Shown one piece after another: positions 8,891 through 28,059 of a stretch of DNA of 39,157 nt (positions are counted from its first letter, which is position 1; each line of letters begins with the position of its first letter). The notes under the pieces were generated by a model, which saw only the letters and a program-made list of their open reading frames with translations, ran no database searches and had not been told where the DNA came from. Origin of the DNA: Clostridiaceae bacterium. GTDB lineage: Bacteria > Bacillota > Clostridia > Peptostreptococcales > Natronincolaceae. The position numbers and the translations under genes were made by a program. The stretch spans positions 1-39,157 of the forward strand of contig JAFIFG010000028.1 in NCBI GenBank assembly GCA_020832135.1. Reading direction: 5' to 3'.

Positions 8891-8926
8891 ATATAGTGAT
8901 TATACAATTAAATCCGAAATAAGAAA

Positions 8927-8940: not shown

Positions 8941-8990
8941 ACTTTTTCATATTTGTTGTTTTTTCATATTTTAAAGGGAGGTCATATACT

Positions 8991-9671
8991 ATGGATAGCA
9001 CTATAAAACTGCTTAAACATTGTATTCTTTTTAAGCATCTATCTATAGAGGAGATAGAACAGTTGCTATGGGATATTACCTATAGCATAAAATTTTACAA
9101 TAAAAATGAAGTAGTCTTTTCACCACATCAACCTGCCGATACCTTAGGAGTTATCTTAGATGGAGGTGTAGATGTGCAAAAAATATTTGCCTCTGGAAAG
9201 GCAGTAACCGTTAATAGAAGGTTTCAGTATGAGATTATAGCGGAAGCTTCTATATTTGCCAATATAGATTGCTACCCTTCCACCATATCTACCTTTGAAA
9301 ATAGTCATATTTTTCTCATTAACAAAAGCAATCTTGTGAAATTGTTTTCTAAGGATGAAGGGATTATGTCTAAGTTTCTGGAGTCGGTTTCTAATAGGGT
9401 TTTGGCGCTAAACACCACCATTGAAATTCTTTCTCTAAATTCCGTTCCTAGCAAAATAGCTTATTTTTTATTGGTGGAGAGGAACAAACAAAATAGCAAT
9501 ACCATAAGGCTTAAGTTTAGTAAGAAATCATTAGCTGAACATCTAAATGTATCTAGACCAACCCTATCGAGGGAGCTTAAGCATATGCAATCTAAGGGGA
9601 TTATCTCCTTTGATAAAAAAACTATTGAAATACATAATTTAGAAAAACTCGAGGAGCTTTGTTCTGTATAA
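8991..9671 (+). CDS. Crp/Fnr-family transcriptional regulator
   Basis: A 226-residue cytoplasmic regulator. Residues about 8-125 form a cyclic-nucleotide-binding-like beta-barrel ('LFKHLSIEEIEQLL', 'LGVILDGGVDV'). Residues about 150-220 form a winged helix-turn-helix with recognition helix 'VSRPTLSRELKHMQ'. There is no N-terminal Cys cluster like that of FNR, and the effector is unknown. AAAGGGAGGT precedes the ATG. It is divergent from the activase/SsuABC operon, which makes that operon its most likely target, with a Fur-like box in its own promoter. The stop codon sits at the left end of a structured repeat copy. Confidence 0.85.
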   Translation: MDSTIKLLKHCILFKHLSIEEIEQLLWDITYSIKFYNKNEVVFSPHQPADTLGVILDGGVDVQKIFASGKAVTVNRRFQYEIIAEASIFANIDCYPSTISTFENSHIFLINKSNLVKLFSKDEGIMSKFLESVSNRVLALNTTIEILSLNSVPSKIAYFLLVERNKQNSNTIRLKFSKKSLAEHLNVSRPTLSRELKHMQSKGIISFDKKTIEIHNLEKLEELCSV

Positions 9672-9797: not shown

Positions 9798-9840
9798 AAA
9801 AACAGCCCCATCTTTAATACATCAAGATGGGGCTGTTTTT
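9798..9840. terminator. Strong bidirectional terminator
   Basis: A 17-bp perfect stem containing CAGCCCCATCTT/AAGATGGGGCTG with a 9-nt loop and T tracts in both directions. It serves the Crp/Fnr gene from the left and the Cys-rich peptide gene from the right, whose stop codon touches it. Confidence 0.9.
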
Positions 9841-9959
9841 TAATTTATTTTATCACACCCGCACCTTCCTGCTTTATTACAGCTACACTCTGTACAGTTG
9901 CAAATTTTTTCTGTTTTTTCTTCAGTGTTCTTTTCAAAAGATTTTATAATCTCCTTCAT
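9840..9959 (-). CDS. Fur-controlled 39-residue Cys-rich peptide, putative metal binder
   Basis: A small cytoplasmic peptide with a charged N-terminal half (Lys/Glu-rich, residues 1-18) and a Cys-rich tail 'CNCTECSCNKAGRCGC' (residues 20-35). The pattern is CxC-x2-CxC-x5-CxC, which resembles metallothionein or metal-chaperone binding motifs. I do not recognise a named family. Support for a real gene is strong: a GAGGGGGT ribosome site, a perfect TTGACA-17-TATAAT promoter, a Fur box just after the -10, and a strong terminator right at the stop codon. It has no signal peptide or membrane segment. Fur control suggests it works when iron is short, perhaps buffering or delivering a transition metal. 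Confidence 0.75.
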   Translation of the reverse strand: MKEIIKSFEKNTEEKTEKICNCTECSCNKAGRCGCDKIN

Positions 9960-9990: not shown

Positions 9991-10046
9991 GATAGTGATA
10001 CTCATTATCATATGTAAATTATACTATTTTCTGAAACTTATGTCAA
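9991..10046 (-). promoter_or_regulatory. Consensus promoter with Fur box for the Cys-rich peptide gene
   Basis: On the minus strand TTGACA and TATAAT are separated by exactly 17 bp, a perfect sigma-A promoter. Just downstream, GATAGTGATACTCATTATC matches the 19-bp Fur consensus at 17 positions, overlapping the expected transcription start. Repression by iron-loaded Fur is the natural reading. Confidence 0.8.
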
Positions 10047-10088: not shown

Positions 10089-10853
10089 CTATGAGAAAAC
10101 AAGTGATGATTCTAACAGTAGTTTTGTGTAGGGATGCTGAGCTTCTCTGACAATATTATTTTCTTCTAAAACCTCTACAATCTCCCCTGACTTCATTACA
10201 TATATTCTGTCACAAATATTCTCTGCAATTGCTAAATCATGGGTTATAAATATGCTTGAAAAATTAGATTTTTGTCTTAGTTCAAAAATTAGCTTTAGTA
10301 TCTGATTCTGAATAGAGACATCTAAGCAAGATGTAGCTTCATCAAAAATAATTATTTCTGGATTTATGCCAATACATCTAGCAATTACTACTCTTTGTAG
10401 CTGTCCACCACTTAATTCATTTGGATATCTGTTAAGATATTCCTTTGATAACCCTACGTTTTCCAAAAGGTCCCCCACATACTTTCTTGCTTCTTTTTTT
10501 CCCATTATTTTAAAGTTTACAAATGGTTCCATTAAATAATCGCCTATCTTCATTCTTGGGCTAAAGGTACTCAATGGATCTTGAAAAACCATTTGAACAT
10601 TTTTATAATAATCTTTAAGCTCTTTCCCTTTTAGTCTAGTGCTATTCCTGCCCTTAAAGAAAATATTTCCATTATCCACATAAGTTAAGTGACAAATGAT
10701 CCTTGCCAAGGTGCTTTTCCCACAGCCACTTTCTCCAACAATGCCTATACACTCACCTTTACCCAAGTGCATATTAACATTCTTTACAGCAGCAAAGGAT
10801 TGCTTATCATTATTTATAAAACTTTTGTTAATATTATTTAATTCAAGGATCAT
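10089..10853 (-). CDS. ABC transporter ATPase, DppF/NikE type
   Basis: A 254-residue ATPase of the dipeptide/oligopeptide/nickel family. It has Walker A 'GESGCGKST', Q loop 'MVFQDPLSTFSPRM', signature 'LSGGQLQR', Walker B 'IIIFDEA' and switch His in 'ITHDLA'. It is the second ATPase of a pair and the last gene of the operon, 4 nt after the first ATPase, with a GGGGTGG ribosome site. I see no clear terminator between it and the Cys-rich peptide promoter. Its metal or peptide specificity is set by the binding protein, not by this subunit. Confidence 0.88.
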   Translation of the reverse strand: MILELNNINKSFINNDKQSFAAVKNVNMHLGKGECIGIVGESGCGKSTLARIICHLTYVDNGNIFFKGRNSTRLKGKELKDYYKNVQMVFQDPLSTFSPRMKIGDYLMEPFVNFKIMGKKEARKYVGDLLENVGLSKEYLNRYPNELSGGQLQRVVIARCIGINPEIIIFDEATSCLDVSIQNQILKLIFELRQKSNFSSIFITHDLAIAENICDRIYVMKSGEIVEVLEENNIVREAQHPYTKLLLESSLVFS

Positions 10854-10857
10854 CTAT

Positions 10858-11652
10858 TTACCACCCCTCTGCTCCTTTTAATTTAGGCATTGCACCAAGA
10901 AGTTGTTTTGTATATTCTTTTCGAGGATCATTAAGTATCCTACTTGTAGCTGCAAATTCTTCAATCCTACCATTATTCATAACCATAATTTTGTCTGACA
11001 TATATGCAGCACACCCAATGTTATGTGTAACCATGATAATACTTGTGTTAAATTTATCCCTCAACTGAATTAACTCATTGGTAATTTGTAATTGCGTTGT
11101 AACATCTAAAGCACTGGTAGGTTCATCAGCGATAATTAGCTTGGGTTCCATTACCATTGCCATGGCAATAGCAACCCTTTGCTTCATTCCGCCACTTAGC
11201 TGAAAAGGGTAGGAATTCATAATTCTTTCTGTATCTAAAAGGTTCATCTTTTGCAAAGTTTCTTTAGCTTTTTCTTTTGCAATCTTTACTTCTACATTCT
11301 TATGATTCCTAATAGCTTCAATGATTTGCTTTTCAACCTTCATTATTGGATTAAGATAGGAGGATGGGTTTTGAAAAACCATTCCTATTTCCTTCCCCCT
11401 TAACTGCCTCCATTGTTCTTTATTAAAATGGCAAAGATCTTTGCCATCAAAAATGATTTCTCCACCTACTATACTAGCATGCTTTGGGAGTAGGTTAATA
11501 ATCGTCCTTATTAACGTAGTCTTACCACAACCACTTTCCCCAACAATGCCAATGATTTCTTTGTGTCCGACACTTATATTTATATTGTTAATTATATTTT
11601 CCTCACCGTCGTATTTGACGGTGAGGTTTTTAATTTCTAGCAATGTGCTCAT
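10858..11652 (-). CDS. ABC transporter ATPase, DppD/NikD type
   Basis: A 264-residue ATPase with Walker A 'GESGCGKTT', Q loop 'MVFQNPSSYLNPIM', signature 'LSGGMKQR', Walker B 'LIIADEP' and switch His in 'VTHNIG'. It starts 3 nt past the binding-protein stop, with only a weak ribosome site, so it probably depends on coupled translation. The C-terminal stretch after about residue 235 is short and has no Cys-rich cluster of the kind seen in some DppD/OppD proteins. Confidence 0.88.
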   Translation of the reverse strand: MSTLLEIKNLTVKYDGEENIINNINISVGHKEIIGIVGESGCGKTTLIRTIINLLPKHASIVGGEIIFDGKDLCHFNKEQWRQLRGKEIGMVFQNPSSYLNPIMKVEKQIIEAIRNHKNVEVKIAKEKAKETLQKMNLLDTERIMNSYPFQLSGGMKQRVAIAMAMVMEPKLIIADEPTSALDVTTQLQITNELIQLRDKFNTSIIMVTHNIGCAAYMSDKIMVMNNGRIEEFAATSRILNDPRKEYTKQLLGAMPKLKGAEGW

Positions 11653-11655
11653 TGA

Positions 11656-13215
11656 TTATTTAACCTGTACTCTTTCATCAATATAGTAAACTTCAGAGAT
11701 AAATCTATATATACCATCTACTTTTTTATTGGTAACAACTGTACCTTCTTGATAGTACAAGAATAAGGAAGCAACATCCTGCATTAGAAGTTCAGCACCG
11801 TCCATACCTAGTTGATCTCTACTTCCTTTATCAAATGTGATCCTTAACTCATCGTAAAGTCTGTCAAACTCAGGATTGCTATAGTTGCCAACATTTCCTG
11901 GACCATCCGTTCCATAGGAAGATAAAAAGTTCTCAGGATCAGCTGTAGGTGCTGAAGTCCATCTTTCCCATTTTAGATCATAATCACCATTTTTAGCCAT
12001 ATCAGAATAGTTTTCAACCTGTACTACTTCTACACCTATCCCAATATCTTTAAACTGTGATTGCATAGCAATACCAATATTATTAGCATCATTGCCATGA
12101 TTTGTTCTAGATATATATTTAAGTACAATATTTTCCCCTTGATATTCTCTTATTCCATCACCATTAGTATCTATAAAACCAGCTTCATCCAATAATTGAT
12201 TAGCCTTTTGAGGATCATACTTATAGAAGTCTTCTCCTTGATGGCCAAAAGAAAGCTCGTCAGTAAATGGTCCTTTTGCAGGAACACCATTTACTAACTC
12301 TCGAGCATAGGTTTCTTTGTCTATACCATAGGCTAAAGCTTGTCTAAATGCTAAATGCTGCATATAGGGCTTGTCCATATTAAACCTTAATAGGAAGATA
12401 CGTAAATTAGGTCCTTTATGCACCACAAATTCATCATTATTTTCAAAGAGGCTTAAGTCCCTTGCATTAATTTGTGTTGCCAAATCTATTTCTCCTGATT
12501 GCAAAGCCATTGTACGGACTGATCCATCTTGAATATATTTCACATTCACTATATCTACCGCCACTTCTCCACTCCAATGTTCATCATGCTTTTCTAATGT
12601 CAATCCAACATCTGGTGTAAAGCTTGTAACTTTAAAAGGTCCTGTAGCAATAGGTTGATATTTAAAGTTTGGATCTTCTGCAGCGGAAACATCTACAATA
12701 GTAAATACAGGATCTGCTAAATTATTAAGTAAGGTAGGATATGCATCCTCCGTTACTATGGTTAATTTGTGGCCATCTGCTTCCATAGATGTCAATGGAA
12801 ATTTTACGTCGTCTCTATTGGATATATCCAGAGCCCTTTCAATTGACTTTTTTACAGCTTCAGCATCTACAGCTTTACCATTATGAAATTTTACCCCCTC
12901 CCTAATATGGAAGATGATAGTCCTTTCATCAACAGTCTCCCAAGACTCTGCTATAACTGCTTTTAAATTCATATTTTCATCAAACTGAACTAAGTTTTCC
13001 CCTATTCCAGCCCGTGATAAAGTCCACCCATGCCAACCTTCTGTTGGCTCAATATTAGCATCTAACCAAAATAATGCCATGTTTAATACTTTGAGTTCAT
13101 TACCTTCTCCCAAAACAGCTTCCTGATTCGTTTCTGTTTCTACACTTTTACCACAACCAATAAGTATAAAGACCATTACAATAATAATAAAAAATGCCAA
13201 TAACTTTTTCACCAC
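11656..13215 (-). CDS. Substrate-binding lipoprotein, dipeptide/nickel/metallophore (Cnt-like) type
   Basis: A 519-residue lipoprotein with lipobox 'LIGC' (Cys21) and an SBP_bac_5 fold. The N-terminal stretch 'GWHGWTLSRAGIGENLVQFD' is of the kind found in nickel and opine-metallophore binding proteins such as CntA, rather than in OppA. The central 'LRFNMDKPYMQHLAFRQALAYGID' and late 'SSYGTDGPGNVGNYSNPEFD' are standard for the family. The start is GTG at 13215 with AGGGGG 6 nt upstream. Downstream of a Fur box and a ligase gene, it most likely binds a metal-chelator complex; a plain peptide ligand remains possible. Confidence 0.82.
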   Translation of the reverse strand: MVKKLLAFFIIIVMVFILIGCGKSVETETNQEAVLGEGNELKVLNMALFWLDANIEPTEGWHGWTLSRAGIGENLVQFDENMNLKAVIAESWETVDERTIIFHIREGVKFHNGKAVDAEAVKKSIERALDISNRDDVKFPLTSMEADGHKLTIVTEDAYPTLLNNLADPVFTIVDVSAAEDPNFKYQPIATGPFKVTSFTPDVGLTLEKHDEHWSGEVAVDIVNVKYIQDGSVRTMALQSGEIDLATQINARDLSLFENNDEFVVHKGPNLRIFLLRFNMDKPYMQHLAFRQALAYGIDKETYARELVNGVPAKGPFTDELSFGHQGEDFYKYDPQKANQLLDEAGFIDTNGDGIREYQGENIVLKYISRTNHGNDANNIGIAMQSQFKDIGIGVEVVQVENYSDMAKNGDYDLKWERWTSAPTADPENFLSSYGTDGPGNVGNYSNPEFDRLYDELRITFDKGSRDQLGMDGAELLMQDVASLFLYYQEGTVVTNKKVDGIYRFISEVYYIDERVQVK

Positions 13216-13237
13216 ATCTACCCCCTAATTTTTATAT

Positions 13238-14053
13238 TTAAATATGTTTTGGATCTAGTACGTCTCGCAATGTATCCCCCAAAACATTAAAAACACAAAC
13301 TACGATAAATATAGCCATCCCTGGGTATATTAATAGCCAAGGGGCTGTTTGCATATAAGCCCTGCCTTCATTCAACATATTCCCCCATTCTGGTGCAGGA
13401 GGTTGTACCCCTAATCCCAGAAAGGATAGGCCGGCAATAGCCAACATCATACTACCAATATCAATTGCTAACTGAACAACTAAGGGTGAAATAATATTAG
13501 GAAATATATAACGAGTTATTAGCTTTAATGGACTTCCACCAGCCATTCTCCCAGCATCTATATACTCCCTATTCTTAATACTCATTACTAAAACTCTTGA
13601 TAATCTAGCATATTTAGTCCACCAAATTAAGGATAATGCTAATACCGTATTAACAAGTCCCGGTCCCAACATCCCTACTACTGCGATGGCCAAAACCATA
13701 TCAGGAAAGGATAGGATAATATCAGTTATTCTCATAATTGCAGTATCTACCTTACCACCAATCATTCCAGCGATAGTTCCTATAATTAATCCAAATAAAA
13801 ATACCAATCCCAATAATAAGAAAGTGATGCTTAGGGTTGTTTTCGCCCCATATAGAATTCTAGAGTAGATACATCTCCCTACTTGATCCGTACCAAAGGG
13901 ATACTTATCAGTGGGTTCCCTTAGAACATTTTGAAAATCCGTAACTAGTGGATCATTGGGGGCAAACTTAGGAGCAATAAAGGAGAAAATGATAATTGAA
14001 AAAGCTAAACAAAGCATAAATAGAAAGAATATCCTTTTTATTTTTTTCATCAT
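13238..14053 (-). CDS. ABC transporter permease, DppC/NikC type
   Basis: A 271-residue membrane protein with an N-terminal anchor helix, then the 'FGTDQVGRCIYSRILYGAKTT' signature of DppC/NikC permeases. Five more hydrophobic segments follow, plus an EAA-type loop around 'GRMAGGSPLKLITRYIFPN'. The end 'FNVLGDTLRDVLDPKH' is family-typical. Its start overlaps the previous permease stop by 4 nt (ATGA), a common coupling arrangement, with AAAGGAAG upstream. Confidence 0.88.
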   Translation of the reverse strand: MMKKIKRIFFLFMLCLAFSIIIFSFIAPKFAPNDPLVTDFQNVLREPTDKYPFGTDQVGRCIYSRILYGAKTTLSITFLLLGLVFLFGLIIGTIAGMIGGKVDTAIMRITDIILSFPDMVLAIAVVGMLGPGLVNTVLALSLIWWTKYARLSRVLVMSIKNREYIDAGRMAGGSPLKLITRYIFPNIISPLVVQLAIDIGSMMLAIAGLSFLGLGVQPPAPEWGNMLNEGRAYMQTAPWLLIYPGMAIFIVVCVFNVLGDTLRDVLDPKHI

Positions 14054-14997
14054 TTGATCTTCCTTTCTGCACCTATTGTTACCCTTGGGTCAAGATATTG
14101 AGTAACTATTTCCACCACGAAGTTCAAAGCCACATAAACAATAGACATAAAAATAACATAACCTTGTAGTAATGGATAGTCTCGATATTCTATTGCTTCT
14201 AATGCCATAGAACCTAGTCCAGGCCAAAGAAAAACATTTTCAACAATTACAGTACCACTTAATAATGCAGCTATAGACATACCGAAAAGTGTGATGATAC
14301 CTATAATAGCATTAGGTAAAACGTGTTGAAATATAATCTTTATTTCCTTTGTTCCTCTTGCCCTGGCACCAAGTACATAATCTTGCGAGAGTTCTTCCAA
14401 TACGGAAGCTCGAATTTGTCTAGTATACCTACCAACTAAAGGAATAGTCAAGGTGATAGCTGGTAATAAAATACTCTTTAGTTCATTAGGATTGGTAATG
14501 GTAAAGTACCTCATCTTTACTACAAACCAATAGATTAATAGTAGTCCCAGCCAAAAAGAAGGAATAGATATGCCAAAGAAAGATAATAGCCGTATTATAT
14601 AGTCAAAAAATCTATTCTGATAAATAGCTGATAATATCCCTAAAAGCAAAGAAAAAAATACTAAAAAACATAAAGCAGTTATGGATAATTTAACGGTCAT
14701 TGGAATTCTTTGTGCTAAAACATCCATAACAGGCACCTTAGCTCTATAGGATATACCTAAATCCCCTTGAGATAGACCCTTTAACCATCTCCCATATTGA
14801 AGCATGAATGGATCATTTAAACCCATTTCCTCTCTAGTTCTTTCTAGCACCTCTTCTGTAGGAACAGTGTCATGGGCTGTTAAGAGGATCTCAGCAGCAT
14901 CCCCAGGACTAATGTATGTAAGTGTGAATGTTAAAAATGTTGCTCCCAATATAACTAAAAGTACTTGCAGAAACCTTCTAAAAATATATTTTTTCAA
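14050..14997 (-). CDS. ABC transporter permease, DppB/NikB type
   Basis: A membrane permease of about 315 residues with six hydrophobic segments. It has the DppB-type periplasmic loop ('GLNDPFMLQYGRWLKGLSQG', 'DLGISYRA'), the cytoplasmic loop 'LGARARGTKEIKIIFQHVLPN' and the end 'TQYLDPRV'. I prefer a TTG start at 14997, giving the usual N-terminus 'KKYIFRRFLQV', because GGAGG lies 8 nt before it. The GTG at 15024 gives nine extra charged residues and has no ribosome site. Confidence 0.85.
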   Translation of the reverse strand: MKKYIFRRFLQVLLVILGATFLTFTLTYISPGDAAEILLTAHDTVPTEEVLERTREEMGLNDPFMLQYGRWLKGLSQGDLGISYRAKVPVMDVLAQRIPMTVKLSITALCFLVFFSLLLGILSAIYQNRFFDYIIRLLSFFGISIPSFWLGLLLIYWFVVKMRYFTITNPNELKSILLPAITLTIPLVGRYTRQIRASVLEELSQDYVLGARARGTKEIKIIFQHVLPNAIIGIITLFGMSIAALLSGTVIVENVFLWPGLGSMALEAIEYRDYPLLQGYVIFMSIVYVALNFVVEIVTQYLDPRVTIGAERKIK

Positions 14998-15066
14998 TTT
15001 ACGTTCCTCCACTTTAACCCTCACTCATAATAGAGTTATTATTGCTATTTAATTATTAGATGCTTT

Positions 15067-15936
15067 TCAACAATTCTTTAAAATAGAGGATAATTTCTGG
15101 CTTAAGATTTTCAGCCCTAATATGTTTTGAGCTAAATAAAGATTCGGTTCAATAAGCTCTAATTCAAGTAAGAGAGGTTTTTTATCCTTGCCATACACAT
15201 AATCCACACGTGCATATAGGAGCTCTTCTTCCAATAAGCTAAGGGTTTCCTTTAAAAATAGTAAGTCTTGTTCTGTAGGAATAGTTTCTGTGTAGGTACC
15301 ACCCCAATGCTTATGAACTAAATAGCTTCCTCTAGCTGGTTTTTTTTTCATAGTAAAGACAGGTTGACCATCTATAACAACAGTTGATCGTTCACCTACT
15401 GTCTCAATTGATTCTATATAAGGTTGTATCATTACAGGCTTAGTTTTTAAAATCTTTTTTACAGCATCCTCAATTCCTTTAGTGTCATTAGAATTATATC
15501 TATAGGTATCTCTACCACTTGCACTAATGACAGGCTTGATAATAACTTGCTCACAATTAAAATCTATTATTTGTTTTTTAAAATCAAGTTCAGAGTCTAT
15601 GAAAATAGTTGGAACTATTAATGCTCCTTTTTCTTTTAAATTCTTAAGATAAAATTTACTGCTATTTTCTTTTATCGTCTTATATGGATTCAGCAGCAAA
15701 CATTTGCTTTGAATTAAATAAAGTTGCTTTAAAAATTCATTTAATCTCTGATCATAGTCCCAGCAAGATCGTATAATAGCAATTTTAAATAAAGAAAAAT
15801 CAATATTTTCATCATCCCACGCTACTATTTTGGCTGTATGCCCTTCTGCTGTAAGTTCATCCCTTAAAGCCATATCATCAATATGAGGTTCATTATAGTA
15901 TTTTTCACTAACTAAGATCGCAAAATCAATCATCAT
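15067..15936 (-). CDS. ATP-grasp ligase, DcsG-like family
   Basis: A 289-residue cytoplasmic enzyme of the ATP-grasp superfamily, in the group that includes DcsG of cycloserine biosynthesis. Visible signatures are 'IIRSCWDYDQRLNEFL' near residues 50-65, 'IIKPVISASGRDTYRY' (ATP-binding Lys region), 'MIQPYIESIETVGERS' and the metal-binding end 'LLLELELIEPNLYL' (Glu-rich, near residue 260). Such enzymes join a carboxylate to an amine or similar nucleophile using ATP. It is the first gene of a six-gene operon with a DppBCDF/Nik-like importer, 43 nt ahead of the GTG-15024 reading of the first permease, and has GGAGGT before the ATG. With a Fur promoter this suggests it makes or modifies a metal-chelating ligand. 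The actual substrate is unknown. Confidence 0.8.
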   Translation of the reverse strand: MMIDFAILVSEKYYNEPHIDDMALRDELTAEGHTAKIVAWDDENIDFSLFKIAIIRSCWDYDQRLNEFLKQLYLIQSKCLLLNPYKTIKENSSKFYLKNLKEKGALIVPTIFIDSELDFKKQIIDFNCEQVIIKPVISASGRDTYRYNSNDTKGIEDAVKKILKTKPVMIQPYIESIETVGERSTVVIDGQPVFTMKKKPARGSYLVHKHWGGTYTETIPTEQDLLFLKETLSLLEEELLYARVDYVYGKDKKPLLLELELIEPNLYLAQNILGLKILSQKLSSILKNC

Positions 15937-16024
15937 TTTTTACCTCCAAACTTTCATCATGCTATTAAATTATTGTAAATAAAATCAAGCTTCATTTATC
16001 TTAAAAGTTAATTCAGATTTAATG

Positions 16025-16077
16025 ATAATGAAATTCATTATTAATCGTATGGTAGCATAATGTTAATTTACTGTCAA
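16025..16077 (-). promoter_or_regulatory. Fur-box promoter of the ATP-grasp/transporter operon
   Basis: TTGACA and TACCAT are separated by 17 bp on the minus strand. Immediately downstream is a perfect palindrome ATAATGAA-A-TTCATTAT, which matches the 19-bp Fur consensus at 16 positions. The layout (-35, -10, then Fur box) is the same as at the Cys-rich peptide gene. Confidence 0.75.
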
Positions 16078-16179
16078 TATATTCCTTAACATTAATACTT
16101 TTTTGTATCGTTGATAGGATATAGGTTTTTTTCTAAGTTAATAATTTATCCTTTGCAATCTTATTTATGAGATATAAAA

Positions 16180-16214
16180 AATAAAAATCCGCCTCTATTT
16201 TGTATAAGAGACGG
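16180..16214 (-). terminator. Terminator at the end of the riboswitch leader
   Basis: On the minus strand a TCCGTCTCT/AGAGGCGGA stem (one G-U pair) with a short loop is followed by TTTTTATTTTTT. It overlaps the last codons and stop of the 31-codon leader ORF, so translation of that ORF would melt or block the hairpin. Confidence 0.8.
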
Positions 16215-16290
16215 AATTATTCGCTATATCACCATTACGGCTTAAACCAGCATTTAGTCTTATAACACTAATGATGGTTTGTCTAGCCAA
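16195..16290 (-). CDS. 31-codon leader ORF behind the cobalamin riboswitch
   Basis: A possible peptide starting with TTG, 'ARQTIISVIRLNAGLSRNGD' after the start residue, with AGGGGG 8 nt before the TTG. It is the only reading frame between the riboswitch and the terminator, and the terminator hairpin overlaps its 3' end. I recognise no family. It may be a true leader peptide that couples translation to termination, or the remnant of a gene once controlled by the riboswitch. The short length keeps confidence low. Confidence 0.4.
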   Translation of the reverse strand: MARQTIISVIRLNAGLSRNGDIANNSVSYTK

Positions 16291-16335
16291 CGAATACACC
16301 CCCTATCGCTCGTAGAGTATCACGTGTAAAAAAAA

Positions 16336-16495
16336 TAGGCAGGTCTTCTGGCTCAAGCATCATCATCTTTTCCACCTTCCCAGTTTCCCAGTGGTATATT
16401 AGAAAAGACTCTTCTTTTACAGCGGCGGGACCGCGTGGGATTTTCACCCAACTTCCATTTTAAAATAGAGGGGTTTCCTCTATTCACCTATTCTT
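16336..16495 (-). promoter_or_regulatory. Cobalamin (B12) riboswitch
   Basis: Read on the minus strand, the core contains 'GGTGAAAATCCCACGCGG' and 'CCCGCCGCTGT', and ends with 'GCTTGAGCCAGAAGACCTGC', the hallmark 3' segment of cobalamin riboswitches. A small TAGAGG/CCTCTA hairpin lies at its 5' side. It is transcribed away from csoR and towards the ATP-grasp operon. The ribosome site of the 31-codon ORF and a terminator follow, and the next full gene begins about 260 nt beyond that terminator's 5' side. Confidence 0.9.
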
Positions 16496-16522
16496 ACTTA
16501 TGAAATTTTTCACAAGTTTATT

Positions 16523-16551
16523 ATAATATAAAAAATCAGTTTTTAAAACAA
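16523..16551 (-). promoter_or_regulatory. Likely promoter of the riboswitch leader
   Basis: TTGTTT and TATTAT are separated by 17 bp on the minus strand, about 30 bp before the riboswitch 5' hairpin. The -10 matches 5 of 6 and the -35 matches 4 of 6. Confidence 0.5.
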
Positions 16552-16965: not shown

Positions 16966-16973
16966 GTGATAAA

Positions 16974-18977: not shown

Positions 18978-19730
18978 TTAAAGCTTATTAAACCTATTTC
19001 TATACTCCATAGGCGACATTCCATAGGTCTTTTTAAACACTCTACTAAAATAATGCTGTGATGTATAGCCTACCCTTATGGAGACATTGTACACAGTGAC
19101 TCTAGCATGATCATTTTCTAGAATTTCCTTTGCTTTATCTAATCTTATATCCGTTAGGTACTCTACAAAAGACTTTCCTAGCTCCTGTTTCATTAATTTA
19201 CTTATGTAGGATTTGTTTACATCAAATAACTGTGCTATATGGGACAAATCCAGCTGACTGTCATCAAAGTGATTATCTATATAATTTTTAACACATCTAA
19301 TAATAGATGAATATGCAGTACTTCTTTCAGCAATATCTTCTACCTCATCTGCGCCGGTACCGAAGGTCTCCATAATTTTTCTCAGAAGATTATTAAATTC
19401 ATTTTTAGAAACAGGTTTTAATAAGTAATCAAACACGTTAAGTTTTATAGCTTTATGGGCATACTGAAAATCATCATAACCAGTAATAATCACTACAATA
19501 CTATTGGGAGAAGTTTTTTTTACCTGACTAATAAAGTCAAGTCCATTCATTATTGGCATATTAATATCTACTAAAAGCAATTCTGGAGAAGTCTTTACAG
19601 TATACTCTAAAGCTTCTTTGCCATTCTTCGCTTCAGCAATCACCTGAAATTTATAAGGGCTTTCCTCTATCCACTGTTTAAGTCCTTTTCTAATTTTAGG
19701 CTCATCATCTGCAATAAGAACTTTAAACAT
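18978..19730 (-). CDS. AraC-type response regulator (YesN-like)
   Basis: A 250-residue two-component regulator. The receiver domain (about 1-120) has Asp8, Asp9, phosphoacceptor Asp55 and the 'LLKPVSK' lysine. The C-terminal part (about 145-250) holds two AraC-type helix-turn-helix motifs ending in 'RVFKKTYGMSPMEYRNRF'. It overlaps the histidine kinase gene by 8 nt and is the last gene of the nik/MATE operon. The most likely target is that operon itself, but no binding site was identified. Confidence 0.9.
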   Translation of the reverse strand: MFKVLIADDEPKIRKGLKQWIEESPYKFQVIAEAKNGKEALEYTVKTSPELLLVDINMPIMNGLDFISQVKKTSPNSIVVIITGYDDFQYAHKAIKLNVFDYLLKPVSKNEFNNLLRKIMETFGTGADEVEDIAERSTAYSSIIRCVKNYIDNHFDDSQLDLSHIAQLFDVNKSYISKLMKQELGKSFVEYLTDIRLDKAKEILENDHARVTVYNVSIRVGYTSQHYFSRVFKKTYGMSPMEYRNRFNKL

Positions 19731-21330
19731 AGTCCTCCTCCCCTCTTATCTTTGGTATTGTAATAGTAGCAGTAGTCCACCCGCTTTTAGATTGAAGCTC
19801 TAATCCATACTCTTCGCCATGCTCTAACTTTATCCTATGATTTACACTATACAGACCATATCCCTTAAGGATTTCCGTTTTGCTATCAGTCTTTAGAGCA
19901 TCATTTATTTCCTCTAGAATATCTAAAGGCATTTCTGAATTATTCATTATTTTCGCAACAATAGCCTCATCTTTATGGGCAATATAAATAGAAACTTTAC
20001 CGCCACTTTCTATTTTATTTACCCCATGTACCACGGCATTTTCTACTATAGGCTGTAGCAGAACCCTCATTACCTTATACTCTAACAGACTCTCGTCATA
20101 ATGAATGCTATAAGTTAATCGTTCCTCATACCTTGATTTTTGAATACTAAGATAACTATCAATATGCTCTAGTTCCTCATCAAGACTAATAAAGTTTTTT
20201 CCATTGCTAAGACCAATTCGAAAATAGGTCCCCAAAGAATCTATTAGACTTAACACTTCTTCTGTATTATCCTCCATGGCTACCCACTTAATGGTATCTA
20301 AAGTATTATAAAGGAAATGTGGTTTGATTTGCTCCTGCATGATTCTAAGTTTCATTTCCTTTTCTTGGTAACTAAGTTTTTCAAGCTTTTCTATCATATT
20401 ATTGAAGCCAGTAATAAGACTACCTATTTCGTCTCTTCTATTGCTTTTAAGCCTTACTGACCAGTCTCCATCCTCCACCTTTTTCATCAGTGCCTTTAAC
20501 TGATTGATGGGTTTAACAATGGAAGCAAAACTAATAACTAATAATGCAATTACAATAATCAGCAGTATTATTTGAAAAACCACGATATGTTTACGTATCT
20601 CCTGGTTAATTTCGTTTATATTCCCTTCAGGAATATAATAATTAAGAGACCAACCTCTAGCAGTTCTTATATCTGTTTCAAAAATTATAGGATTTTCTTC
20701 TAAAAAATTAGTAGAAAAAAATTTCTCATCTGTATGAATACTGTTGTTTTTTACTAATATCTCTCCAGTACCACCGTATATATTTATCCTAGAGGCTATC
20801 CTCATCAGTCCCTCCAATGGAACCTCTGCATAAATGAACTCAATCTCTCTATTTACTCCCCCTACCTTGTAAAGCATGACTACAATCTTTTCACCGTTTT
20901 TTTCCCTTGGTTCACTTACTTTAAAGCTTGCATTTTCCTTTAGGGCATTTTTATAATAATCTTCTCTATTAATATAATATCCAGTACCATCACAGCTTAG
21001 CTTATATCCACCAAACTTTACAATTCCCATATCAAAATAAATATCACTTTTTTCCTTATATACCGATTGAATATATTCCCTAGCCTTAAATTCATCCATA
21101 TCAGAATTTATGATAAATGACGACATCATTTGCAACTCTATTTTCCGCTGTTCCAACCAGTAGGATATTTGATTCCCTCTGGCATCAATAATTTGACTTG
21201 TAAGGTTTATATTAAGCAGGTTAACCCTTTGTTTTACTTTGCCATCTATACTATAAATAAATAGAGAAAATAATATAGAGAATGTTATACATATAGCTCC
21301 GATAATTTTTACTTTGATAGATATTTTCAT
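19723..21330 (-). CDS. Sensor histidine kinase (YesM-like)
   Basis: A 535-residue membrane kinase. It has a membrane helix near 8-28, an extracellular Cache-like sensor of about 220 residues, a second helix near 250-270, then a HAMP segment. The His_kinase domain has the phosphorylated His in 'QIKPHFLYNTLDTIKW', followed by an ATPase domain ('LLQPIVENAVVHGV'). AGGAGGT precedes the ATG. Kinases of this family usually sense sugars or small extracellular ligands. Placement behind an importer/exporter set suggests it senses a molecule moved by those transporters. Confidence 0.9.
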   Translation of the reverse strand: MKISIKVKIIGAICITFSILFSLFIYSIDGKVKQRVNLLNINLTSQIIDARGNQISYWLEQRKIELQMMSSFIINSDMDEFKAREYIQSVYKEKSDIYFDMGIVKFGGYKLSCDGTGYYINREDYYKNALKENASFKVSEPREKNGEKIVVMLYKVGGVNREIEFIYAEVPLEGLMRIASRINIYGGTGEILVKNNSIHTDEKFFSTNFLEENPIIFETDIRTARGWSLNYYIPEGNINEINQEIRKHIVVFQIILLIIVIALLVISFASIVKPINQLKALMKKVEDGDWSVRLKSNRRDEIGSLITGFNNMIEKLEKLSYQEKEMKLRIMQEQIKPHFLYNTLDTIKWVAMEDNTEEVLSLIDSLGTYFRIGLSNGKNFISLDEELEHIDSYLSIQKSRYEERLTYSIHYDESLLEYKVMRVLLQPIVENAVVHGVNKIESGGKVSIYIAHKDEAIVAKIMNNSEMPLDILEEINDALKTDSKTEILKGYGLYSVNHRIKLEHGEEYGLELQSKSGWTTATITIPKIRGEEDYV

Positions 21331-21374: not shown

Positions 21375-22703
21375 CTATGTAGTAATAACTTGACTAGTCT
21401 CAAATACAAAGACTTCTTTCTTAAAGGTTGTAATATAGGATGCAAGAAAAACACTTCTTCCTAAACTAAAAACAATATAAGAAAACCATAGCCCATGGTT
21501 ACCCCAAAGAGGAATCATCACAAAATAAGTTATGAGAAATGCTCCAAGGGATAAAATCATTGAATTTCTTACGGGAGCAGTATAGGTAGCACCGGTAAAA
21601 ATTCCATAGTACACTAGCCCAATTCCGATAACAAATGGGTAAATCACCAACCATATGGAGTAAGCTAAACTTAGATTAATTATGCTTTCAATAACAGTAA
21701 AAATACTGATTATTTCACCTCTAAAAAAGTATATCACAAGTGACATGATGGCCGCTAACATAAAGGCTGTTTTGGTAGAAATAGTTAAAACTTCGTTATA
21801 TAGCTTTGTATTCTTTTCACCAACAGCTGTACCTACAAAGACACTGGAGGCATTGGCAAAACCATCAAAACAGTATGCAATAATATATTGTATTTGGAAT
21901 AAAACTGCATTAGCTGCCAACATTTCTGTTCCTAGAGAAGCTCCTTTTGCCACAAACATATTGGTTACTATAAGTAAGCATACTGTTCTAATCATAAGAT
22001 CTGTATTTACACCCATAATTTTTTTGAAGGCTGTTTTATCAAATAACTGATAAAAGTAATTTTTTATTGCCAATAGGTTTAAATTTACACTGATAAGATA
22101 GAATCCAATAACAAAGGCTGTTATTTGTGCTATCAAGGTTGCATAGGCAACTCCAGCTACACCCATCTTAAAATACATAACAAACACAATGTCTAATACA
22201 ATATTTAATACATTAGAAAAAATCTGTAAAAACATAGAAGCCTTTACCCTTTTCCTTCCCATAAGCCATCCGAGATTTACATAGTTCAGTAAAACAAAGG
22301 GTGCCCCCCAAATTAAAATATGAAAATAGGTGGATGCTTGACGGTACACCTCCATTTCAGGATTAATGAGCTTCATGGCAGTACGGAAAATAGGCACCTG
22401 GAACATCACAAAAATTAAACTTATTATAATAGCAATCATACTAGGTCTATACAATGCAAATAATCCATCCTTTTCATCCTTTGTCCCCAGGGCCTGGGCA
22501 GAATACCCTGATGTGCTTACCCTCAAAAATCCAAATAGCCAATAAAGTGTACTAAAAATCACTGTTCCCACTGCTACCCCACCTATATAGGCAGGGTCAC
22601 CGAGTCTACCTATAACAGCAGTATCTACTGCTCCTAATAGAGGTTGTGTTATGGTTGATATGGTAAAAGGTATGGCAAGTTTAAGATATTCTTTGTATTT
22701 CAT
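21375..22703 (-). CDS. MATE-family efflux transporter (DinF-like)
   Basis: A membrane protein of about 442 residues with some twelve hydrophobic segments in two MatE repeats. The N-terminus 'PFTISTITQPLLGAVDTAVI' is the conserved first-helix motif. I chose the ATG at 22703: AGGAGG lies 9 nt before it, within the longer 22721 reading. Its start overlaps the upstream ATPase gene by 23 nt, so it is tightly coupled to a nickel-type importer. Sodium- or proton-driven export of drugs or secreted metabolites is usual for the family. Here export of a metal chelator is an attractive but unproved role. Confidence 0.85.
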   Translation of the reverse strand: MKYKEYLKLAIPFTISTITQPLLGAVDTAVIGRLGDPAYIGGVAVGTVIFSTLYWLFGFLRVSTSGYSAQALGTKDEKDGLFALYRPSMIAIIISLIFVMFQVPIFRTAMKLINPEMEVYRQASTYFHILIWGAPFVLLNYVNLGWLMGRKRVKASMFLQIFSNVLNIVLDIVFVMYFKMGVAGVAYATLIAQITAFVIGFYLISVNLNLLAIKNYFYQLFDKTAFKKIMGVNTDLMIRTVCLLIVTNMFVAKGASLGTEMLAANAVLFQIQYIIAYCFDGFANASSVFVGTAVGEKNTKLYNEVLTISTKTAFMLAAIMSLVIYFFRGEIISIFTVIESIINLSLAYSIWLVIYPFVIGIGLVYYGIFTGATYTAPVRNSMILSLGAFLITYFVMIPLWGNHGLWFSYIVFSLGRSVFLASYITTFKKEVFVFETSQVITT

Positions 22704-23484
22704 AGATTTCTTCCTCCTCATTCATCATCATAGCAGCATGTAATAATGTCCTAGAGTATTCCTCTTTTACATTTTTTAAGTCATTCATGGTGTTAACCTC
22801 TTCGATGACAACACCCTCCTTGAAAAATAGAACTCGATCGCATATATAAGTAATTGCTGTTAAATCATGGGTAATAAAGATGTAGGATATACCCATTTGT
22901 TCTTTTAGATTGATAAGTAAATCCAATACCTGCACTTGAATAGATACATCTAAAGAACTTATGGCTTCATCAAGTACAATGAACTCAGGATTGGTGGCAA
23001 TGGCTCTAGCAATACATACCCTTTGTAATTGTCCCCCACTAAGTTCATGGGGATAACGATATAAATATTCTTCAGATAAACCTACTTTATCTAATAAATT
23101 GATTGCCTTTTTTATCCTATCCTTTTTCGTTAGTTTTTCAAAAGTCTTCATTGGCTCCGAGAGAATATCTATCACCTTAAACCTTGGGTTCACGGAAGAA
23201 CTATAGTCTTGAAAAACAACACTGGACTTCTTTTTTATAGAGCTGCTATTTGTTTTACTGATATCTATACCATCAAGATGTATACTGCCACTATCTGCCT
23301 TCTCCACTCCAATAATTAAACGACCTAAAGTACTTTTACCACTGCCGCTTTCACCAATGATACCAAGACACTCCCCTTCTTTAAGGTTGAAGGATACACC
23401 CTTTAAAATTTCATTTTTTCCCTTTTTTATTATATTAAAAGACTTTTTATAGCTTTTATAAATATCCTTTACTTCTAATAGCAT
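22681..23484 (-). CDS. nikE: Nickel/dipeptide ABC transporter ATPase, NikE type
   Basis: A 267-residue ATPase with Walker A 'GESGSGKST', Q loop 'VVFQDYSSSVNPRF', signature 'LSGGQLQR', Walker B 'FIVLDEA' and switch His in 'ITHDLT'. It overlaps the preceding ATPase gene by 29 nt, with GGGGGAGG before the ATG. The symbol rests on its place in an operon headed by a NikA-like protein. Confidence 0.82.
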   Translation of the reverse strand: MLLEVKDIYKSYKKSFNIIKKGKNEILKGVSFNLKEGECLGIIGESGSGKSTLGRLIIGVEKADSGSIHLDGIDISKTNSSSIKKKSSVVFQDYSSSVNPRFKVIDILSEPMKTFEKLTKKDRIKKAINLLDKVGLSEEYLYRYPHELSGGQLQRVCIARAIATNPEFIVLDEAISSLDVSIQVQVLDLLINLKEQMGISYIFITHDLTAITYICDRVLFFKEGVVIEEVNTMNDLKNVKEEYSRTLLHAAMMMNEEEEIYEIQRIS

Positions 23485-24307
23485 GTGCCTCCCCCTGTCC
23501 TACAGCCAGATGAAATCTATCCACCAACGCCTTTCTTGTATCAATTAAGTATCTGGTATGTTGATTTTTAGAATTCCTTAAAAGATATTGTGTCTCCCCC
23601 TGTTCTACAATTTCACCATCCTTCATCACTAGGACATCGTCGGCTATCCTAGCCACTGCTCCTAAATCATGAGATATAAAAATCATGGATGTATTATGGT
23701 TTTCTTTAATCCTTGTAAATTCCTCCATCACCTTCACTACATTGATGGCATCCACAGCAGTAGTTGGTTCATCAGCAATAATAATACTAGGTTTTAGTGC
23801 AAGTGCGATTCCTATCATAATCCTTTGGAGCATACCTCCACTCAATTGATGTGGATATTTTTTAAGGACATCCTTAGGGCAATGCATATACATATCCTCC
23901 AGTGCCTTTAAGGAAAGATTTAAAGCTTCTTTTTTGCTGACAGCAAGATTTTCAATGAAGGTCTCTATCATTTGCTCTTGTATGGGATAAAGGGGATCAA
24001 AGGCAGTCATAGGATTTTGTAATATCATAGAAATTTCCTTTCCTCTTATATGTCTAATCTTCCTTTTATCTGCCTTTAACAGATGGATGTCATTGAAAAT
24101 GACATCTCCCTTTACATCAAAGCTGTTATTCAAAAGCCCTAATATGGCTTTACAGGTCATACTCTTCCCACTACCGCTTTCCCCTACGATACCTAGACAT
24201 CGATTTTTCTTTAAGCCAAAGGAAATATCAGAAATAATATCTCGAGATGTAGTATGATCCTTGTGCTGTACTTTTAAATTATTTACCTTTAAGATTTCTG
24301 TAGCCAT
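23456..24307 (-). CDS. nikD: Nickel/dipeptide ABC transporter ATPase, NikD type
   Basis: A 283-residue ATPase with Walker A 'GESGSGKSM', where the final Ser/Thr of the usual GKS/T-T is Met. It also has Q loop 'MILQNPMTAFDPLY', signature 'LSGGMLQR', Walker B 'IIIADEP' and switch His in 'ISHDLG'. The GKSM variant is common in NikD/DppD proteins. AAGGAGGT lies before the ATG, only 1 nt beyond the end of the permease reading. Confidence 0.82.
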   Translation of the reverse strand: MATEILKVNNLKVQHKDHTTSRDIISDISFGLKKNRCLGIVGESGSGKSMTCKAILGLLNNSFDVKGDVIFNDIHLLKADKRKIRHIRGKEISMILQNPMTAFDPLYPIQEQMIETFIENLAVSKKEALNLSLKALEDMYMHCPKDVLKKYPHQLSGGMLQRIMIGIALALKPSIIIADEPTTAVDAINVVKVMEEFTRIKENHNTSMIFISHDLGAVARIADDVLVMKDGEIVEQGETQYLLRNSKNQHTRYLIDTRKALVDRFHLAVGQGEAHAIRSKGYL

Positions 24308-24308
24308 C

Positions 24309-25127
24309 TTATACCTCCTTAGGGTCCAATATATCCCTTAAACTATCTCCTAACATATTAAAAGAGGATACAAGTATTAAAATTGCTAAACCTGGAGCAA
24401 GCATTTGTGTTGGATGGGAAGTAATAACATTTTTCGCTTCACTAAGCATTGCCCCCCACTCTGCTGCCGGTGCTTGAACCCCAAGCCCTAGAAAGGAAAG
24501 GGTAGAAATACTAATGATAACCCAACCCGTATCCAAGGTAGCCAGCACAATGATCTCCGATAAAATATTGGGTAGCATATGTCTAGTAATAATAAATGAT
24601 TTCCTTGTACCTATGGTTTTAGCATATAAAATATAGTTTTTATTATTATATTTAATAACAGTAGACCTGATCATCCTAGCATACCATGCCCACTTAATAG
24701 CAATGCTTGCTATAATTACATTCCGTATCCCAACCCCCATCATACCCACCACTGCTAGGATCATTACCTGACTAGGGAAGGATAACATAATATCAACAAT
24801 TCTCATGATGACTTCATCCAAGAGTCCTCTAGCATATCCCGATATCATACCAATTGCTGTACCAATGACAATGGTACATAGCATAGTAAGTAGAGATAAA
24901 AACACAGTAGGTCTGATACCATAAATAAGTCTTGATAATATACAACGTCCAAGATGGTCCGTACCTAGAGGAAATTCCTGGCTCCCCTCGGCATATTTAC
25001 TTATAATACTTGTCTTATCTGGATCGTTTGGGGCAATCTCCTCAGCAAAAACTCCCACCATCATAGTGGTTAAAATAATGATTAAAGTTATTACAGCAAT
25101 TTTGTCTTTTATTAATTTTTTTAACAT
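24309..25127 (-). CDS. nikC: Nickel/dipeptide ABC transporter permease, NikC type
   Basis: A membrane permease of about 272 residues with the 'FPLGTDHLGRCILSRLIYG' signature of NikC/DppC, six hydrophobic segments and the end 'FNMLGDSLRDILDPKE'. I chose the ATG at 25127, which follows the upstream TAA by one base with GAGGGG nearby, over the GTG at 25142. Confidence 0.85.
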   Translation of the reverse strand: MLKKLIKDKIAVITLIIILTTMMVGVFAEEIAPNDPDKTSIISKYAEGSQEFPLGTDHLGRCILSRLIYGIRPTVFLSLLTMLCTIVIGTAIGMISGYARGLLDEVIMRIVDIMLSFPSQVMILAVVGMMGVGIRNVIIASIAIKWAWYARMIRSTVIKYNNKNYILYAKTIGTRKSFIITRHMLPNILSEIIVLATLDTGWVIISISTLSFLGLGVQAPAAEWGAMLSEAKNVITSHPTQMLAPGLAILILVSSFNMLGDSLRDILDPKEV

Positions 25128-25128
25128 A

Positions 25129-26064
25129 TTATATCCCCTCACGTAACCTTGGATCTAATTTATGGTGCAGAATATCAACACACAGGTTGCAGAAAATAAA
25201 TAGTATCCCCATCATAAGAATGTAAGCCTGAATGATTGGGTAATCCCTGTTGAAAATTGCGGTAATACACAACCTCCCTATCCCAGGCCAAGAAAAGATG
25301 TTTTCTATCACCACTGTACCGGAAACAAGCTGAACGATACTCATTCCTAAAGCAGTTACGGAGGATTGAAGAGAATTCTTAAGGACATGTTTTAAAATAA
25401 TGCTTCTGTTCTGAAGTCCTCTAACCTTTGCATAAAACACATAATTCTCCGTCATGTTTTCCAACATATTGTTTCTTATCAATCTAACATAGGTAGAGAT
25501 ATAAGTAAGACTTAAGGTAATAGCCGGCAGAATGATGGCCCCTGCCTCTCTATTTCCTCCAGTTGGTACAAGATCTAATTTCACTGAAAATAACCATATT
25601 AGCAGGATGCCAACCCAATAGTTAGGCATAGCTGTGCCGATAAATATAAATATTCTTACAATCCTATCAAAAACACTGTCTTTAAATACAGCACATAGTA
25701 CACCTACAGGAATACTTACCACCATTACAATGAACAAAGAAGCTGTAGCAAGCTCTAAAGTAGCAGGTAAACTTCTAGTAATTTCACCTAAAACTGTCCT
25801 ATCTTTATTTACATAGGAATTTCCAAAATCAAGGTGAAGTACGTCCCATAGCCAAGTAATATAGCGTTGAAAATAGGGTTTATTCAGTCCTAGCTCTTCC
25901 CTCATACCTTCTATAGCTTCCTCTGTAGGTATAATTTCATTTACCCTTAAGGCTACTTCCGCTGGATCCGCTGGAATAAGATTGATGAGAACAAAGGCGA
26001 CAAAGGACACTGCCAACATCATCGGTAAAGCCATCAACATTCTTTTTATGATATATTTTTTCAT
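25129..26064 (-). CDS. nikB: Nickel/dipeptide ABC transporter permease, NikB type
   Basis: A permease of about 311 residues with an N-terminal anchor, the DppB-type loop 'LGLNKPYFQRYITWLWDV', five further membrane segments and the end 'DILHHKLDPRL'. I chose the ATG at 26064 because AAGGAGGT lies just before it. The longer reading to 26127 adds a charged stretch unlike the family. The 258-nt gap back to nikA holds a structured repeat copy, so the operon continues through an inserted element. Confidence 0.85.
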   Translation of the reverse strand: MKKYIIKRMLMALPMMLAVSFVAFVLINLIPADPAEVALRVNEIIPTEEAIEGMREELGLNKPYFQRYITWLWDVLHLDFGNSYVNKDRTVLGEITRSLPATLELATASLFIVMVVSIPVGVLCAVFKDSVFDRIVRIFIFIGTAMPNYWVGILLIWLFSVKLDLVPTGGNREAGAIILPAITLSLTYISTYVRLIRNNMLENMTENYVFYAKVRGLQNRSIILKHVLKNSLQSSVTALGMSIVQLVSGTVVIENIFSWPGIGRLCITAIFNRDYPIIQAYILMMGILFIFCNLCVDILHHKLDPRLREGI

Positions 26065-26151
26065 CTTTACCTCCTTCATTCTTTTAGAATGTGCAAGATG
26101 GTCATAGATAGATTCATCCATGACCAAGTCTGCATTAAAACTTTTATTTTC

Positions 26152-26330
26152 TCCTTCGGTGTATTGCTAAGACTCCCACTTAAACTAGCGGGAGATCAAG
26201 CACTACATCCTCGAAGTAAATTCGACTACAATTTAGAGAGGGTAAAAAATCTCTCTAGATAAACAAACTAAGCGACTAACACAAAATTAAAAATTTTGGT
26301 TATCTGCTTATAAATTAAGTCTCATTTTAT
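26152..26330 (-). repeat. Structured repeat element, copy B (full form)
   Basis: A 179-nt copy of the element also found at 9668-9790 and 29445-29623, same length as copy C. Its left end overlaps the nikA stop codon: the TGA is part of the element's TGAGACTTAA start. Helices are kept by paired changes relative to copy C: AATTT/AAATT, AAGC/GCTT, CAAAATT/AATTTTG and AGAGAG/CTCTCT. It lies inside the transcript between nikA and nikB. Confidence 0.8.
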
Positions 26331-27959: not shown

Positions 27960-28027
27960 GTAAAATAACCCCCTTGTGTAATATGGCATATCCATATAAA
28001 GGATATTGCTGGTAAAACATTTCAAAT

Positions 28028-28059
28028 GATAATAATAATCATCTTCGTTTCTAATTATA
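28028..28059 (-). promoter_or_regulatory. Fur-box promoter of the nik/MATE operon
   Basis: On the minus strand a TATAAT -10 box is followed 7 nt later by a Fur-like site, GATAATAATAATCATCTTC on the plus strand, matching the 19-bp Fur consensus at 16 positions. I see no good -35 box. The position of the Fur site just after the -10 is the same as at the two other minus-strand Fur promoters in the window. Confidence 0.6.

Follow-up and report, generated by a model that had tools for sequence, protein, structure and literature searches.

A cobalamin riboswitch and a Fur-like promoter before an ATP-grasp ligase and a Nik-type importer: a candidate cobalt chelate-scavenging operon of Clostridia

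Do the two parts of an operon that joins an ATP-grasp ligase to a metal importer serve one small molecule, and which metal would that molecule carry? The question is raised by six contiguous minus-strand genes (15936..10089) on contig JAFIFG010000028.1 of the Clostridiaceae bacterium assembly GCA_020832135.1, the whole 39,157 nucleotides of which were analysed here (the window); the genes encode an ATP-grasp ligase, two permeases, a substrate-binding lipoprotein (SBP) and two ABC ATPases. An earlier note, made from the sequence alone, had described this operon behind a Fur-type promoter and had seen in it a candidate metallophore system under iron control. All six open reading frames (ORFs) were found where it had placed them, on the minus strand and in matching families. 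A cobalamin riboswitch, a feature missing from that note, also stands in front of the six genes, and it recurs before the first gene of every orthologous importer operon in our set. It is proposed, with a confidence slightly short of even, that these genes serve to scavenge cobalt in chelated form and are linked to iron starvation as well; the ligase would make or tailor the chelator and a MATE transporter would export it. Read in this way, the sequences suggest an Alkaliphilus-like bacterium that makes, secretes and recovers its own chelator for cobalt, perhaps also for iron.

The operon and its two predicted inputs

The riboswitch aptamer (RF00174, 107.6 bits, E 3.4e-26, gathering cut-off 31.5) occupies positions 16321..16506 on the minus strand, as do all features of this operon and its leader. 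Just 5' of it the consensus scan gave a weak promoter-like site, TTTAAA-16-TATAAT (16520..16547), and on its 3' side lies a hairpin followed by a T-rich run (16165..16225; -15 kcal/mol, z -3.56, 1/200 shuffles as stable), which is likely the terminator of the riboswitch and is absent from the output of a simple terminator scan. A proximal promoter, TTGACA-17-TACCAT with a TG before the second hexamer (16049..16077), leads directly into a Fur-like box, AATAATGAATTTCATTATC (16024..16042), that agrees with the 19-base consensus used in the scan at 16 positions. The promoter scan alone is weak, with 7 sites in the stretch against 4.8 expected, though the proximal layout recurs in relatives. For the box, no shuffle out of 200 mononucleotide shuffles of the 360 upstream bases scored 16/19, and the whole window holds 4 listed matches (3 sites) with at most three mismatches against 0.11 expected; the Fur-type promoter claimed ahead of the ligase is thus borne out at the level of the box. 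The genome has three FUR-family genes and 11 cobalamin riboswitches. Because the riboswitch with its distal promoter lies 5' of the Fur-boxed proximal promoter, the operon appears to have two inputs, B12 by read-through from the distal promoter and iron via the proximal one: at low adenosylcobalamin the riboswitch would let transcription past the terminator, and at low iron Fur would release the second promoter, 3' of the riboswitch.

As a B12-switched Nik-type system, the window importer has its riboswitch upstream on the same strand, a Nik/Opp-type SBP, two permeases and two ATPases. The permeases, both with a BPD_transp_1 domain, pass curated cut-offs of the nickel branch: the NikB/Opp2B-like protein (14050..15024) scores 364.8 with the Opp2B model (cut-off 350) and the NikC/Opp2C-like protein (13238..14053) 322.1 with Opp2C (cut-off 300). 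The Opp5A/NikA-like lipoprotein (11656..13215, 519 aa, SBP_bac_5) reaches 345.7 with Opp5A_nikA, below the cut-off of 600, and 125.6 bits with the CntA model, for which 800 is required. Its nearest sequences in the PDB are the nickel-binding protein 3t66 and the SaNikA group, with chains of heme-binding protein A also among the matches. The NikD-like (10858..11652) and NikE/OppF-like (10089..10853) ATPases, both ABC_tran, stay under every curated cut-off shown. Divergent from the operon are a CsoR-type repressor gene and a metal P-type ATPase gene (16690-18887, plus strand), a pair that also occurs by the second Nik/Cnt-type cluster described below (G003 and G123).

Recurrence of the riboswitch and the MATE transporter with the importer

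Importer orthologs were collected at E <= 1e-90 among 247 relatives (10 genomes) and at E <= 1e-150 among 393 genomes of the order (at least 10, nine of them common to both searches); scoring in the 393-genome searches was limited to the top 3-4 first-look candidates of each genome, and the counts of these searches, for the importer as for the MATE transporter, are lower bounds. The resulting set of 11 loci adds Anaeromonas gelatinilytica from a named collection and leaves aside genome G003, whose SBP (40% identity) falls outside the 11-ortholog clade in the tree and whose stretch contains no cobalamin match. Two operons are partly visible, since locus L041 ends after the SBP gene and L036 430 bases after the last ATPase gene. 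The SBPs of the 11 loci are 56-70% identical to that of the window and their clade is supported in the tree. At 11/11 of these loci a cobalamin riboswitch lies 5' of the first operon gene, the match at L041 being weak (43.7 bits against the gathering cut-off of 31.5); the gap from aptamer to start codon, with start codons as chosen, ranges from 98 to 384 nt and is largest in the window. A Fur-like box of at least 15/19 is absent from the 600 bases upstream at the other 10 importer loci, and the candidates that were seen there were rejected as too weak, the best of them (14/19, L036) being equalled by 17/200 shuffles.

Given the riboswitch at 11/11 loci and the lack of a box of that quality at the other ten, the metal of the importer is, on sequence grounds, most likely cobalt, the riboswitch being the best single indication. 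The iron control ascribed to the operon in the earlier note is plausible for the ligase, which has the Fur promoter layout at 3/9 of its loci, but iron is not the general signal of the importer. The invariant residues of the SBP family include no His, Cys only at the lipobox, and many Arg and Trp; this pattern is compatible with a bound compound that itself supplies the metal ligands, without proving it. We infer that the imported form would be a chelate, and it is likely that the importer carries chelated cobalt.

A MATE transporter is the second component that recurs with this importer. In the window its gene (21375..22721, minus strand; TIGR00797 matE 245.8, cut-off 147.4 passed) ends a second, Fur-boxed operon, which encodes another Nik/Cnt-type importer (22681..28025, minus strand) with its SBP at 26322-28025, permeases at 25129-26127 and 24309-25142, and ATPases at 23456-24307 and 22681-23484. 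The SBP of this second importer scores 589.6 with TIGR02294 nickel_nikA, over the cut-off of 393, and 529.4 with CntA, below 800. Before it the consensus scan gave a Fur-like box of 16/19 (28028..28046, plus strand), and in the five syntenic clusters of this second type the best boxes reach 14-16/19, with 0, 7, 0, 1 and 9 of 500 shuffles as good. The genes of a response regulator with an AraC-type HTH and of a histidine kinase (18978..21330, minus strand) accompany the second importer and the MATE gene in 5/5 of these clusters. Among the riboswitch-type operons, the first gene after the riboswitch encodes a MATE transporter 52-63% identical to that of the window in 5/11 cases. A search of the 393 genomes of the order for the MATE protein itself, with genomes not selected for the importer, returned at least 10 orthologs (E <= 1e-110), and 10/10 of those found sit in operons of Nik/Cnt-type importers, five of the second type and five of the riboswitch type. 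Locus L037 has an unrelated MATE-family gene after its importer, 22.6% identical to that of the window. Among six weak PDB matches of the window protein is HvAACT1 of barley, which we take to be a citrate exporter. That the MATE protein would export a chelator, the outward direction included, is our inference from these associations.

Riboswitch importer operons that lack the ligase contain other enzymes of amide chemistry, namely a GNAT acetyltransferase in 4/11 loci and a DoeB-like deacylase in 2/11; a further GNAT gene at the start of another contig of genome G093 could not be placed. One locus, L066, has none of MATE, GNAT and deacylase; near this importer locus of genome G1043 Rfam also reports PYLIS_3 (pyrrolysine insertion, mttB) at 13196-13295, minus strand. 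Away from the main importer locus of genome G015, L064 carries consecutive genes for a methyltransferase, a DoeB-like deacylase and a GNAT protein together with a short permease-like ORF recognised by eye (6751-9069, minus strand).

The genome of the window gave matches to the late B12-synthesis proteins CobU, CobO, CobT and CbiX, and it has a separate riboswitch-linked CbiM/CbiQ importer and a riboswitch-linked Peripla_BP_2 protein that is a candidate for B12 uptake. With B12 synthesis and CbiM/CbiQ present, the Nik-type system may take up cobalt in a different form. Two more riboswitch-associated Nik/Opp-type importers lie on contig G000:C20 of the same genome (L044; riboswitches at 9361-9539 and 17964-18141, minus strand); both operons include an S-adenosylmethionine (SAM)-methyltransferase gene, and at about 11785 (minus strand) a 17/19 Fur-like box with a TTGACA promoter precedes a methyl-accepting chemotaxis gene beside a B12-switched importer. 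The window also contains an M-box magnesium riboswitch (35402-35573, minus strand, 126.4 bits).

The ligase and its relatives

The first gene of the operon (15067..15936) encodes a DcsG-like ATP-grasp C-N ligase of 289 aa that is recognised by Pfam GSH-S_ATP (32.1 bits, cut-off 23). Its AF2 model (pLDDT 92.3) has DcsG (6jil) as top PDB match, with a TM-score of 0.87 by query length; the next matches, glutathione synthetase, ArgX/LysX and RimK among them, are likewise ATP-grasp ligases. Residues K134, R243, D245, E258, E260 and N265 are invariant in an alignment of eight rows and are presumably catalytic. An assignment as D-cycloserine synthetase was rejected, the protein scoring 146 bits with the NCBIfam DcsG model against an equivalog cut-off of 360. 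A second candidate role, that of a graspetide macrocyclase with a nearby peptide as its substrate, was rejected as unsupported: the Cys-rich ORF considered as the peptide (9840..9959) has a Fur-like promoter of its own. This metallothionein-like ORF, CNCTECSCNKAGRCGC (39 residues, minus strand), lies immediately 3' of the operon and has a separate promoter, TTGACA/TATAAT, with a Fur-like box that scores 17/19 (9991-10009); no second short ORF with its C.C..C.C motif was seen across the loci examined (650,690 bases, copies included).

Matches to the ligase were found in 5/148 relatives and at five loci of the named collection, which gives 9 distinct genomes overall. The family appears to be rare, since neither a phylum sample (1/398, the genome itself) nor a class sample (2/341, the genome itself and G022) added a new relative. 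The count includes L025, whose ligase lacks about 120 N-terminal residues and was kept out of the tree, and two loci from metagenome assemblies, L019 and L021, the former with a masked stretch.

Among these nine genomes the ligase adjoins the importer in 3/3 of those found to have both, in three different orders: it is the first gene in the window, the last in L018, and divergent across the riboswitch in L024. Anaeromonas gelatinilytica is among the genomes with both. That the two remain neighbours despite rearrangement speaks for a link between them; shared inheritance with rearrangement could possibly explain the adjacency as well. The layout TTGACA-17-TAnnnT followed by a Fur-like box precedes the ligase at 3/9 loci, those of the window, of A. 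peptidifermentans (L017; ligase 88% identical, box 16/19) and of Acidaminobacter (L020; box 15/19, of the TGATAATCATTATC type), and these three are among five distinct sites in the loci examined at which the layout occurs with a box of at least 15/19. No good Fur-like box was found before the ligase in L018, L019, L021, L024 or the truncated L025, and at L023 a 14/19 box lies on the side of a divergent MATE gene. From its promoters the ligase looks like a gene of an iron regulon.

The neighbourhood of the Acidaminobacter ligase contains a FeoB-like gene, named by eye, and an ABC half-transporter pair; when only half-size PDB chains are compared, 6p6i, which we take to be YbtPQ, and IrtA come ahead of Sav1866 for the one subunit that was searched. 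An LCM-type methyltransferase gene accompanies such a pair near the ligase in L020 (7752-12154, minus strand) and L021 (7087-7905, plus strand, and 10648-14318, minus strand), the two methyltransferases being relatives at about 34% identity. Judged by this gene content, methyltransferase and ABC pair may possibly form a separate metallophore locus.

A proposed secreted cobalt chelator, its alternatives and known systems

In the mechanism that we propose, the ATP-grasp enzyme would couple a carboxylate to an amine or modify a compound of that kind; its product would be a small molecule that binds metal, an amide or peptide-like chelator. The MATE protein of the neighbouring cluster would export it, the chelator would bind Co(II), perhaps Fe or Ni, outside the cell, and the metal complex would be caught by the lipoprotein and imported by the NikBCDE-like system. 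A secreted and re-imported cobalt chelator is the simplest account of a MATE transporter that travels with the importer, a B12 switch that is always there and amide enzymes that come and go. More tentatively, and with a confidence nearer to one third than to one half, these associations may be extended to a dedicated 'cobaltophore' pathway in Clostridia. Under B12-riboswitch control it would unite an amide-forming enzyme (the ATP-grasp ligase or, depending on the branch, GNAT plus deacylase), export by MATE and NikA-type reuptake; a Fur-controlled Nik/Cnt system would use its exporter too, and perhaps its chelator, and secretion would depend on the B12 status of the cell.

Several findings weigh against this proposal. 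No importer match was obtained in 6/9 ligase genomes, and 8/11 importer loci have no adjacent ligase, with no ligase in six of those eight genomes when they were searched whole (G574 and G1043 were outside that search); each component, then, can do without the other. Mapped on the SBP tree, presence of the ligase takes two changes and is not clustered, 134/500 shuffles being as low. The riboswitch operon of the window itself lacks an exporter; the MATE gene belongs to a different operon, about 5.4 kb away from where the ligase gene starts. The top named model of the MATE protein is DinF (296.6, below the cut-off of 409), so it may instead be a general drug or toxin exporter. When PDB chains of all sizes are compared, the L020 ABC subunit matches eukaryotic ABCB exporters best, the bile salt export pump among them, and SBP_bac_5 importers transport peptides and heme as well. 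With the 8/11 loci that lack an adjacent ligase in mind, we regard it as about even whether the ligase makes the chelator. The connection of ligase and importer drawn in the earlier note stands where a genome has both (3/3), but it does not extend to the importer family at large; the pair was found in 3/9 ligase genomes, and an importer behind a Fur-like box of at least 15/19 in the window only.

The same gaps give weight to cobalt import that involves no self-made chelator: the Nik-like system would take up cobalt in complex with common metabolites, for example histidine, under B12 control, and the ligase would be an iron-regulon enzyme with another function that came to stand first in the operon by a chance insertion. 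SaNikA binds Ni-histidine complexes, and nickel SBPs such as SaNikA are the nearest PDB sequences of the window protein; the riboswitch accompanies the importer at 11/11 loci, and ligase and importer are found apart at 8/11 loci and in 6/9 genomes. B12-switched NikABCDE systems were predicted earlier in C. tetani and D. hafniense (PMC2667541). Such an importer alone leaves unexplained why the ligase adjoins the importer in 3/3 genomes with both, in three arrangements, and why the MATE gene recurs in 5/11 importer operons, and we consider it a serious but rather unlikely explanation. The double control of the operon could also be read from the iron side, as a siderophore system whose ligase product serves iron and whose link to the riboswitch is secondary. 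The Fur promoter layout before the ligase at 3/9 loci and the L020 neighbourhood, with its FeoB-like gene and an ABC pair that has YbtPQ and IrtA among its PDB matches, agree with this, but an importer that is B12-switched at 11/11 loci and has a Fur-like box of at least 15/19 in the window only does not, and the reading is improbable.

Equally improbable in our estimate is salvage of corrinoids or tetrapyrroles, in which cobinamide-like compounds or lower-ligand precursors would be imported and their amides remodelled within the cell by the ligase, acetyltransferase or deacylase. B12 riboswitches often control corrinoid genes, heme-binding protein A chains appear among the PDB matches of the SBP, and the amide chemistry of the accessory enzymes would suit such a role; a MATE transporter is a poor fit, however, a Fur-like promoter precedes the ligase, with iron-type genes near it at other loci, the nearest SBPs bind nickel, and the riboswitch-linked Peripla_BP_2 protein is already a candidate for B12 uptake in this genome. 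Least of all do we expect plain di- or oligopeptide uptake next to an unrelated peptide-bond enzyme: membership in the Opp/Dpp/Nik family allows it, but the permeases exceed the curated Opp2B and Opp2C (nickel) cut-offs and the riboswitch is present at 11/11 loci. A metallophore-type system is likelier than peptide uptake because orthologs of the window MATE protein recur in the importer operon (5/11), and to this extent the metallophore idea of the earlier note is retained, without iron as the general signal of the importer.

Known metallophores bind iron, zinc, nickel, copper or a mixture of metals, in which cobalt may be included. If the proposal is right, a secreted and recovered cobalt chelator would show how scarce cobalt reaches some anaerobes, would be a case of a riboswitch steering a secreted chelator, and would offer a few-enzyme route to a new metal chelator. 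Even with the importer reading alone, the riboswitch at 11/11 loci provides a rule by which this branch of Nik/Opp importers can be annotated as B12-linked and not as peptide or nickel transporters.

Among known systems, those of the staphylopine and pseudopaline type (Cnt, Opp1) resemble the present one in the way they work, with a biosynthetic enzyme, an exporter and a Nik/Opp-type importer, and the comparison is meant in that sense only. The exporter here is a MATE protein, the SBP reaches 126 bits where the CntA model asks for 800, control is by a B12 riboswitch, and no nicotianamine-synthase-like or opine-dehydrogenase-like protein was recognised among the scanned window proteins, the rest of the genome having been searched for neither. 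Opp1 (Cnt) of S. aureus is described as importing nickel and cobalt in the title of a reference in PMC11247825. S. aureus NikA (Opp5A) and Opp2 are closer in sequence, as the window permeases pass the Opp2B and Opp2C cut-offs and the SBP is nearest to this branch; the differences are an SBP below the Opp5A cut-off (346/600), the B12 riboswitch and the ligase gene. DcsG (6JIL) shares the fold of the ligase (TM-score 0.87) but only 23-24% identity in the structural alignment, and no cycloserine genes were recognised in the window. CbiMNQO is likewise a B12-riboswitch-linked cobalt uptake system, of which CbiM and CbiQ occur in the same genome; it is of the ECF type, without a binding lipoprotein or chelator. 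In the open literature, surveyed mostly by listings, we found no report of MATE, ATP-grasp ligase and B12/Fur control around a Nik importer, nor of a 'cobaltophore' or secreted cobalt chelator under B12 control. Also close are the NikABCDE systems of C. tetani and D. hafniense, for which Zhang et al. 2009 (PMC2667541) give an upstream B12 riboswitch as predicted earlier: they share with the window a Nik-type importer behind a cobalamin riboswitch, whereas the excerpted text of that paper names no ligase, exporter or Fur promoter, and the window operon has the ATP-grasp gene, with MATE recurring in orthologous operons. The riboswitch-controlled Nik importer was thus already known as a prediction, and what is new here is the exporter, the ligase and the apparent double control by B12 and Fur.

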